DNA of 33,286 nt, taken from positions 1 through 33,286 of the forward strand of contig JANXYO010000065.1 of the NCBI GenBank assembly GCA_025356015.1, given 5' to 3'. Each line of letters starts with the position of its first letter. Position 1 is the first letter of the stretch. Origin of the DNA: Spirochaetaceae bacterium. Lineage in GTDB: Bacteria > Spirochaetota > Spirochaetia > Treponematales > Rectinemataceae. Positions 8,627 through 11,949 of this stretch are shown one piece after another. The notes below the pieces were generated by a model. The model saw only the letters and a list, made by a program, of their open reading frames with translations. It did not search any database and was not told where the DNA came from. Position numbers and translations under genes: made by a program.

Positions 8627-8639
8627 GGCGAGCCCCCTG

Positions 8640-9076
8640 GAAAAGAGCGCGATAAAAAACCGAAAAGGCCCCCGTCGGACGCCCGCCCGAACGGAAAGGC
8701 CCGCAGCGGGGGCCAGGAAGCCCCTCGCGCGCCTGGTTCGCAACGCGAACCGGGAATCCGGCCTTAGCGTAAGGACGAGTCTCCCGGGGGCCTGACAGGC
8801 CGACCAGCGAAAACCCGCGGTACCACCTTACTTCGACTCCCCTCCCCATGCGGGAATGCGGAAGCCGCGCTCGTCGCCGTTGACGCCGGCATACGGCCGG
8901 GAATACTCCCCTGGCGCCCGATGGCGCTGGCGGTTTCACCCCGACGGCTCGGGAGGGGTTTTCGCCATCGCGCTGCCCAAGGGACTCTCAGCCCCGCGGT
9001 CGGCGCATGGGCGCCAGCCGCGATGTCCCTCTCTCTGTGGGCGCCCTCGAAGGTTACTCGTCTCCGTCTTGGCCTT
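8640..9076 (-). ncRNA. T-box riboswitch leader of thrS (threonine specifier ACC)
   Basis: The minus strand holds the invariant T-box AAGGTGGTACCGCGG (8829 to 8815). Its antiterminator partner TCGTCCTTAC is at 8778-8769, where GTAAGG pairs with CCTTAC. Upstream are Stem I hallmarks in the right order: GACGAGTA (S-turn side), CAGAGAG (AG bulge), GGCTGAGAG (terminal-loop region), and GAA-ACC-G at 8937-8931. ACC is a Thr codon, and GGGGT before GAA can pair with ACCTT after AGTA, placing ACC in the specifier loop. Uncharged tRNA-Thr would bind and stabilise the antiterminator. A competing hairpin (8787-8750, with CCTTA/TAAGG inside) sequesters the antiterminator arm. The leader is long (~450 nt) and GC-rich. 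Confidence 0.94.
8654..8714 (-). terminator. Candidate intrinsic terminator/attenuator at the end of the T-box leader
   Basis: On the minus strand GGCCCCCG (8714-8707) can pair with CGGGGGCC (8674-8667). T-runs of four (8666-8663) and six (8659-8654) follow, ending about 28 nt before the thrS start. The loop is long (32 nt) and partly self-complementary. It does not overlap the antiterminator directly, so coupling would have to go through the intervening hairpins at 8750-8787 and 8735-8751. The terminator assignment is reasonable, the switching mechanism uncertain. Confidence 0.55.
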
Positions 9077-9082
9077 GGGGGA

Positions 9083-9112
9083 AGTATCGCTAGGAAGGTC
9101 GAGGACTGTCAA
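9083..9112 (-). promoter_or_regulatory. Promoter of the T-box-thrS transcript
   Basis: Minus strand TTGACA (9107-9112) and GATACT (9083-9088), spaced by 18 nt. Initiation near 9076 puts the whole T-box leader in the transcript. The perfect -35 box and the position just upstream of Stem I support it. Confidence 0.72.
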
Positions 9113-9350: not shown

Positions 9351-9662
9351 ATGGCGGAAATTTCAGACATCAAAGGCGGGGTAAAGACCCACCAGGAAGA
9401 GAAGACCAAGGAACCCGAGGAGTTCCGTGTCATTCTCATCAACGATGACTTCACCACCATGGAGTTCGTCGTCTCGGTCCTCATGACGGTTTTCCACAAG
9501 CCATTGGCCGAGGCGACGCGCATCATGCTCGATGTCCACAAGAAGGGTAAGGGGATCGTGGGAGTATACAGTTACGACATCGCCGTGACGAAGATCAAAC
9601 AGGTGCATCTGCTGGCGAAGCAGAACGGCTTCCCGCTCAAGTGCACCATGGAGAAGGCGTAG
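9351..9662 (+). CDS. clpS: ClpS, N-degron adaptor of ClpAP
   Basis: 103 residues. After a charged flexible N-terminal tail of about 25 residues comes the ClpS core: FRVILINDDFTTMEFVVSVL (hydrophobic N-degron pocket, with the NDD and T-M-E-F-V residues), then VHKKGKGIVGVYSYDIA, the family's H-x-x-G-x-G segment and ClpA-contact surface. ClpS binds proteins with N-terminal Phe, Leu, Trp or Tyr and delivers them to ClpA. The ribosome-binding site AAGGTAAG is modest. The stop lies 4 nt before the clpA start, so the two are translationally coupled. Confidence 0.96.
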   Translation: MAEISDIKGGVKTHQEEKTKEPEEFRVILINDDFTTMEFVVSVLMTVFHKPLAEATRIMLDVHKKGKGIVGVYSYDIAVTKIKQVHLLAKQNGFPLKCTMEKA

Positions 9663-9666
9663 ATAG

Positions 9667-11949
9667 ATGAAGGTCAGCCAGGAAGTGCAGGCAATATTCA
9701 ACGCTGCGTACAACGAGGCGAAGCTCCGCAACCACGAGTATCTCACTCCGGAGCATATCCTCTATGCGGCTCTCTCGTTCGAACAGGTACGCACCATCCT
9801 CGTCGCCTGCGAAGCTGACATAGAGCAGCTACGCCGTGGCATGGAGTCCTACTTCGAGCAGAAGATCCCCCAGGTCAAGAATTCCGAGCCCGTCCAGACC
9901 GCTGGCTTCCAGAGCGTCATCGAGAGGGCCGTCCTCCAGTCCCAGGCTGCGGGCAAGGAGGAGGTCGAGGTCGCCGACGTCCTAGTCTCCCTTTACGACG
10001 AGGAGCGCAACTACTCCGCCTACTACCTGCGAAAATCGGGGGTCAAGCGCCTCCAGCTCCTCGAGGTCATCTCCCACGGCGAGGGCCACGACGGCGAGGC
10101 CTTCGAGGAGGACGAGGAGGAGGAAGAGGAGGAGGAGGAAGGACACGAGGAGCGCGAGGAACGCAAGCCCAGGGCCGCGGGGCGCATGAACCCCCTCGAG
10201 CGCTTCGCCTCCGACCTCACCAAGTCGGCCCGCGAGGGCAAGCTTGAGCCCGTGATCGGCCGCGAGGCCGAGATCGAGCGCACCATCCAGGTCCTCTGCC
10301 GTCGCCTCAAGAACAACCCCATCCACGTCGGCGACGCCGGCGTCGGCAAGACTGCCATCACCGAGGGCCTCGCCCAGCGCATCGTCGCTGGCACGGTGCC
10401 GCCGCGGCTGCGCGACTACACCATCTATGCCCTCAACATGGGCTCCCTCCTCGCCGGGACCAAGTTCCGCGGCGATTTCGAGGAGCGCGTCAAGCGCGTC
10501 GTCGAGGAGCTTCTCAAGAAGGAGAAGTCGATCCTCTTCATCGACGAGATCCACACGATCGTTGGCGCCGGCGCGGTCTCCGGCGGCTCCCTCGACGCCT
10601 CGAACCTCCTCAAGCCCGCCCTCACCTCGGGCAAGCTGCGCTGCATCGGTTCGACCACCTACGACGAGTACAACAAGTACTTCGAGAAGGACAGGGCCCT
10701 CTCGCGCCGCTTCCAGAAGATCGACATCGTCGAGCCCTCCCAGGGCGAGGCAGTCGAGATCCTCAAGGGCCTTAGGTCCAAGTACGAGGAGTACCACAAC
10801 GTCAAATACTCGGACGAGGGCCTCGAGCTCGCCGTCCGCCTCTCGGCCCAGTACATCACCGAGCGCCGCCTGCCCGACAAGGCGATAGACGTCGTCGACG
10901 AGGCCGGAGCCTGGGCCCGCATCAACGCGTACAAGAACGGGGCCGAGACCGAGACTGCCACCCTCGACATCTCCGAGCGCGAGATCGAGACCGTCGTCGC
11001 CAAGATCGCCCGCATTCCCGAGCGCTCCGTCTCCATGAGCGAGAAGGACAAGCTCGCCTCCCTCGAGGCCTCGCTGAAAGGGGACGTCTTCGGCCAGGAC
11101 AAAGCCCTCGAGGCCGTGGTCCAGGCGGTCAAGCGCAGCCGGGCCGGTTTCCGCCACCCCGACAAGCCGGTGGCCAACTTCCTCTTCGTGGGCCCCACGG
11201 GCGTCGGCAAGACCGAGCTTGCCCGCCAGCTCGCCAAGCACCTCGGGGTCTCCCTGCACCGCTTCGACATGTCGGAGTACCAGGAGAAACACACGGTGAG
11301 CCGCCTCATCGGCTCGCCCCCCGGCTACGTGGGCTACGAGGAGGGGGGCCTCCTCACCGACGCCATCCGCAAGACCCCCCATGCCGTGGTCCTCCTTGAC
11401 GAGATCGAGAAGGCCCACCCCGACGTCTACAACATCCTCCTGCAGATCATGGATTACGCCACCCTCACCGACAACCAGGGCCGCAAGGCCGACTTCCGCA
11501 ACGTCATCCTCATCATGACGAGCAACGCGGGGGCTCGGGACCTGGGCAAGAGCCTCATCGGCTTCGGCGACCGAGCGATCACCGAGACCGCGATCTCGGA
11601 CGCCGTCGAGCGGGCCTTCACCCCCGAGTTCCGCAACCGCCTGGACGCCGTGGTCCGCTTCGTGAACCTCCCGCCCGAGGTGATCGAGCGCATCGTCGTA
11701 AAGGCGATCGACGACTTCCGCGTCCAGCTCACCGAGAAGAAGGTCTCGCTCGAGGTGAGCGACGCCCTCATCAAGCACCTGGCAGAAAAGGGCTACTCGA
11801 GGGAGTTCGGGGCGCGCAACATCGGCCGCCTCGTCGAGGACAAGATCAAGACCTTCTTCGTCGACGAGGTACTCTTCGGACGCCTCGCAGAAGGCGGCAA
11901 GGCCGTCGCCGACCTCAAGGACGGCGAGGTGTCGATAGTCGTAACCTGA
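9667..11949 (+). CDS. clpA: ClpA, AAA+ unfoldase subunit of ClpAP protease
   Basis: 760 residues, the usual ClpA length. Order: N-domain (residues 1-140), an extremely acidic linker of mostly Glu near 145-165, AAA+ domain D1 with Walker A GDAGVGKT (about 221) and Walker [11 protein letters not shown], then D2 with Walker A GPTGVGKT (about 508) and Walker [12 protein letters not shown]. There is no ClpB-type middle coiled coil, which separates it from Clp[10 protein letters not shown] near residue 635 corresponds to the ClpP-docking loop (IGF where E. coli has IGL). The Glu-rich linker is longer than I would expect. No clpP is present in the window. Confidence 0.96.

Follow-up and report, generated by a model that had tools for sequence, protein, structure and literature searches.

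The thrS gene and the elements of its leader

The window, meaning the whole 33,286-nt stretch of DNA analyzed here (contig JANXYO010000065.1 of a Spirochaetaceae bacterium), carries on its minus strand the genome's only full-length copy of thrS, preceded by a leader whose elements run in the order promoter, Stem I, Stem II region, Stem III, T-box/antiterminator, terminator, and thrS (Table 1). The threonyl-tRNA synthetase has the second additional, catalytic, and anticodon-binding domains; it starts at the editing-domain region, and no Pfam match to a TGS domain was found in it. The nearest named relatives of this ThrS are from Spirochaetaceae and Treponema MAGs, and the host is a spirochaete. 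Divergent from the leader and thrS lie clpS (Pfam ClpS) and a clpA-like gene (9351-11949); clpS, as read by eye, apparently lies upstream in relatives such as L002 too.

Table 1. Features of the thrS locus in the window
Feature	Position	Strand	Basis
Sigma-70-type promoter: TTGACA 9112-9107, 18 nt, GATACT 9088-9083	9083..9112	-	10/12 consensus matches
T-box leader core	8793..9079	-	RF00230 model positions 1-219
Stem I base and 5' side of specifier bulge (GACGGAGACGAGTA)	9055..9068	-	Sequence; near-identical in relatives
Stem I motif GGAGACGAGTA	9065-9055	-	Sequence
Distal Stem I motifs: AGAGAG 9036-9031, GCTGAGAG 8992-8985	8985..9036	-	RF00230 match; both kept in relatives
Specifier codon ACC (Thr) in GAAA-ACC-C-CTCC-CGAGC (8963-8947)	8957..8959	-	Conserved in related leaders
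Stem II region, GTGAA / AGTA (AGTA 8907-8904)	8904..8939	-	RF00230 alignment
Stem III hairpin, directly 5' of antiterminator	8836..8866	-	Sequence reading; counterpart hairpin in relatives
Antiterminator: A1 8831-8826/8774-8769, A2 8818-8812/8781-8775	8769..8831	-	Covariation
T-box bulge UGGUACC within antiterminator	8825-8819	-	Sequence, covariation
Terminator: 5' arm 8793-8773, 3' arm 8684-8666, hairpins enclosed	8666..8793	-	Folding energies, z -4.0
U-rich tail TTTTCGGTTTTTT after terminator stem	8654..8666	-	Sequence
Shine-Dalgarno-like AGGGGG, 6 nt before ATG (8626)	8633..8638	-	Sequence
thrS, threonyl-tRNA synthetase, 577 aa	6893..8626	-	Pfam PF07973, PF00587, PF03129

The leader is a genuine T-box. 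A search of the minus strand with RF00230, which a preliminary description of the locus had proposed as a check, gave a significant full-length match (9079-8793, model positions 1-219 of 219; E = 6.7e-9 for a search space of 741 bases, 9.2e-9 for the 4.17-Mb genome), and the whole-genome search returned it as the sole T-box. Its score of 46.1 bits lies below the curated cut-off of 93 bits, at which the Rfam scan missed the element; it was seen with a relaxed threshold. That description had also named the T-box AAGGTGGTACCGCGG (8829-8815), its partner CTCGTCCTTAC (8779-8769), and the Stem I motifs ahead of the thrS start codon, and all of them do stand in the right order on this strand. Stem I is long, judging by its distal motifs. 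The pattern scan found 2 promoter-like sites in the region (versus 0.1 in shuffles), the TTGACA ... -10 arrangement recurs in relatives' leaders, and the transcript is expected to start just before Stem I. The length and G+C content of the leader are as unusual as had been remarked, but both are common to relatives of the same family.

Specifier codon and the two alternative structures

The specifier bulge of Stem I is closed by the pairing of GGAG (9065-9062) with CTCC (8955-8952), and the codon within it, ACC (Thr), agrees with the downstream gene. Relatives have the block GAAN-ACC-N-CTCC with the same GGAG/CTCC closure. Among 68 spirochaete thrS leaders, one of which had the block out of view, ACC was present in all 67 that were readable (58 by pattern and 9 by eye), and the flanking bases varied (A, C, G, or T before; A, C, or G after). 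The TBDB rule, which places the specifier at positions 2 to 4 from the bulge end (PMC7778990), also picks ACC at 8959-8957. The specifier had previously been read as GAA-ACC-G; the codon and its amino acid were right, but that copy (~8936-8930) sits in the Stem II region, on the GTGAA side, where relatives do not keep ACC.

The antiterminator is supported by compensatory change. Over 42 distinct sequences, 96.9% of the cells in its arms were paired and 91 cells had changed on both sides (versus 29.4 in shuffles), counts that lean toward structure because each 3' arm was put where it paired best, with extra weight given to the CGTCC motif. The covariation score of 0.470 exceeded all 500 shuffles (0.193) and all slid versions (at most 0.172), with kinship among the leaders included in these counts and L229, whose arm was placed one base off, left out. 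A UGGNACC bulge inside a paired antiterminator, a trait of T-box leaders, is found at 8831-8769. The earlier proposal to look to relatives for conservation and covariation was borne out on both sides, in the invariant ACC and in this helix.

Beyond it, GGCCCCCG/CGGGGGCC close a very stable stem, whose U-rich tail ends ~28 nt before the ATG and is interrupted (TTTTCGGTTTTTT). The terminator stretch folds at -88.2 kcal/mol (z -4.0). Its 5' arm consists of the loop and 3' arm of the antiterminator (shared segment 8781-8773, loop from 8793), and in the folding model the two structures are mutually exclusive. The whole segment has a free minimum of -101.1 kcal/mol, compared with -91.6 kcal/mol when the antiterminator is forced (a difference of 9.5); before the terminator 3' arm is transcribed, the corresponding values are -72.0 and -71.0 kcal/mol, within ~1 of each other. 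Folding with and without the antiterminator constraint had been suggested, and these energies are its outcome. The terminator 3' arm lies ~85 nt beyond the antiterminator 3' arm, a measure that refines the ~50 nt first given for a T-run terminator. Hairpins between the two had been taken as possible intermediates of the switch; they exist, enclosed by one long terminator stem, and it is this stem itself that competes directly with the antiterminator.

A terminator pattern scan did not flag the long-range stem (8793-8773/8684-8666), because the loop is too long for that scan. A terminator-like site that it did flag (8714-8698) was not favored, because it has no overlap with the antiterminator and shuffled sequences yield about one site of this kind each. 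At the same place, relatives have complementary arms of unrelated sequence, in many cases followed by 5 to 8 T in 8 bases, and the close relatives L011 and L105 have the window's terminator design.

Proposed sensing of tRNA-Thr and competing explanations

We consider the window leader very probably a tRNA-Thr-sensing, transcription-attenuating T-box of thrS. This reading starts from what the locus and its relatives demonstrate: the elements, their order and conservation, the covariation of the antiterminator, and the mutual exclusion of the two structures. By analogy with the T-box family, tRNA would bind and set the direction of the response. Stem I would show ACC to the anticodon GGU of tRNA-Thr, for which one gene was found in the genome (G000:C135:9710-9782, anticodon matching ACC). 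The 3' CCA of uncharged tRNA-Thr would pair with UGG in the bulge (8825-8819) and stabilize the antiterminator (8831-8769), and polymerase would continue into thrS. With charged tRNA-Thr, the antiterminator would give way to the stem 8793-8773/8684-8666 and its U-rich tail, and transcription would terminate ~30 to 40 nt before the thrS start codon. A long Stem I is associated with transcriptional T-boxes (review PMC7583486), and that of the window was counted accordingly. Counted on the other side were the RF00230 score (46 versus 93), the interrupted U-tail, the U/U73 mismatch, and the relatives that have no U-tract.

The mismatch concerns the variable base of the T-box. The window has UGGU (8825-8819), facing U73 of tRNA-Thr (L184:1501-1573), so the pairing of N with the discriminator that is usual in T-box leaders is absent; U73 is the discriminator of tRNA-Thr here and in all spirochaete genomes read (about 40). 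According to TBDB, N pairs with the discriminator in the majority of cases, with exceptions (PMC7778990), and because this pairing is usual rather than obligatory, the mismatch leaves T-box membership intact. Across 85 thrS-linked loci (a set that contains the Anaerolineae loci and in which a few entries duplicate one place), the variable base was U in 43, A in 33, G in 7, and C in 2; A fits U73 and G fits by wobble, but U and C do not. U is characteristic of the window's order and of several other lineages, most relatives of the window having UGGU, and related leaders elsewhere, in Anaerolineae and in some other spirochaetes, have UGGA. We suggest, tentatively and with some doubt, that throughout the order the thrS T-box may disregard the discriminator base, with UGGU (occasionally UGGC) set against an unchanged U73. 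If so, recognition of the acceptor end would depend solely on CCA/UGG, or else on a shifted pair that involves the next A.

Control of translation, with the same tRNA sensing and an alternative fold that hides the ribosome-binding site, would suit the interrupted U-tail of the window. It would also suit L098 and L104, and possibly L005, L013, and L107, which share the T-box core and have no U-tract after the stem; in the folds of L098 and L104, the Shine-Dalgarno region is paired to the antiterminator loop, and these relatives, perhaps with others, may be translationally controlled. For the window itself we regard such control as unlikely, given the very stable GGCCCCCG/CGGGGGCC stem with its U-rich tail, the like arrangement in L011 and L105, and the long Stem I. 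It is less credible still that the leader reads the +1 frame (CCC) and senses tRNA-Pro: the tRNA-Pro of this genome does have A73, which would pair with the U of UGGU where U73 of tRNA-Thr does not, but the downstream gene is thrS, the base after the invariant ACC varies among A, C, and G so that there is no conserved +1 codon, UGGA (which fits U73, not A73) occurs in related leaders that share the specifier, and no tRNA-Pro(GGG) was seen in the subset of the genome's tRNAs that was read. The low Rfam score and the discriminator mismatch might also be signs of a degenerate T-box that has lost its function, an explanation to which we give very little credence, since the helices have been kept through compensatory changes across long divergence and G+C-rich substitutions may explain the score.

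Distribution and origin in the Spirochaetota

A threonine T-box before thrS of a spirochaete, as first described, is supported, but the idea that it is an outlier is not. Of 39 genomes sampled from the window's family and order, 30 have a T-box, in all but a few directly before thrS, and the proposed comparison of thrS leaders recovered the same element in that position across both ranks; a near relative named by its ThrS match (JANYKC010000019.1) has it at the same place. Only 4 of these 39 genomes pass the default Rfam cut-off. Throughout the phylum, at least 72 of 393 Spirochaetota genomes carry a T-box, a lower bound set by stricter filters. Family f3 yielded none in 4 genomes in the near-kin search, and G324 and G426 were positive in the phylum search. 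In four termite-gut spirochaete MAGs (L017, L018, L019, and L020) with close ThrS, no T-box was found genome-wide, and it has probably been lost. A minority of spirochaete T-boxes stand on genes other than thrS (L007, L009, L141-L145, and L149), which by sequence reading include aspartyl-tRNA synthetase (L007), a tryptophan synthase beta-like gene (L009), and a transporter and a ligase-like gene (L141 and L142).

In a quick tree of ThrS, spirochaete enzymes of the window's type that are linked to T-boxes formed a 50-row clade (SH-aLRT 98) adjoining Anaerolineae enzymes that also carry T-boxes. The simplest reading is that thrS and its leader were likely acquired in one old transfer and then passed down mostly vertically in the Spirochaetota; the tree is unrooted and includes few Bacillota, so it does not give the direction of transfer. 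L015 (G025) has a ThrS of a different type (52% identity), but its leader groups with the leaders of the window's family (98), a pattern suggesting that the leader was kept and the gene behind it replaced. The leader DNA tree, with few well-supported branches, was used just for this placement.

The element is a known kind of system in an under-reported phylum. It resembles the transcriptional thrS T-boxes of Bacillota (RF00230, as in Bacillus subtilis) in its Stem I with specifier bulge and distal motifs, its Stems II and III, the UGGNACC bulge in an antiterminator overlapped by the terminator, the ACC specifier, and the thrS gene downstream. It differs from them in being a single element, where Bacillota are reported to have contiguous T-boxes on thrS (PMC12452182), in its very high G+C content, in its long terminator with inserted hairpins, and in UGGU facing U73. 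The thrS T-boxes of Anaerolineae (Chloroflexota; for example, L023, L024, L026-L028, and L031-L033) likewise stand directly before a related ThrS, but their variable base is A (UGGA, pairing with U73) and there are several T-boxes per genome rather than one. Translational T-boxes of Actinobacteria share the tRNA sensing and an antiterminator-like core, but mostly have a shortened Stem I and a sequestered ribosome-binding site in place of the long Stem I and U-tailed terminator seen here. According to open-access surveys, T-boxes occur in Firmicutes, Actinobacteria, Chloroflexi, Deinococcus-Thermus, and a few deltaproteobacteria; in one of them the count for 6 spirochaete genomes was 0 (Wels et al. 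2008, PMC2494555), and two further papers name only other phyla (PMC3766115; PMC2916919). We found no report of spirochaete thrS T-boxes in the largely open-access literature searched, and we claim no priority.

In several lineages of the Spirochaetota, T-boxes are common, as a rule with one per genome, before thrS, and most of them go unseen at the default Rfam cut-off. Their abundance bears on whether T-boxes spread from Firmicutes, and the mismatch of UGGU with U73 is a natural test of the importance of the discriminator pair.
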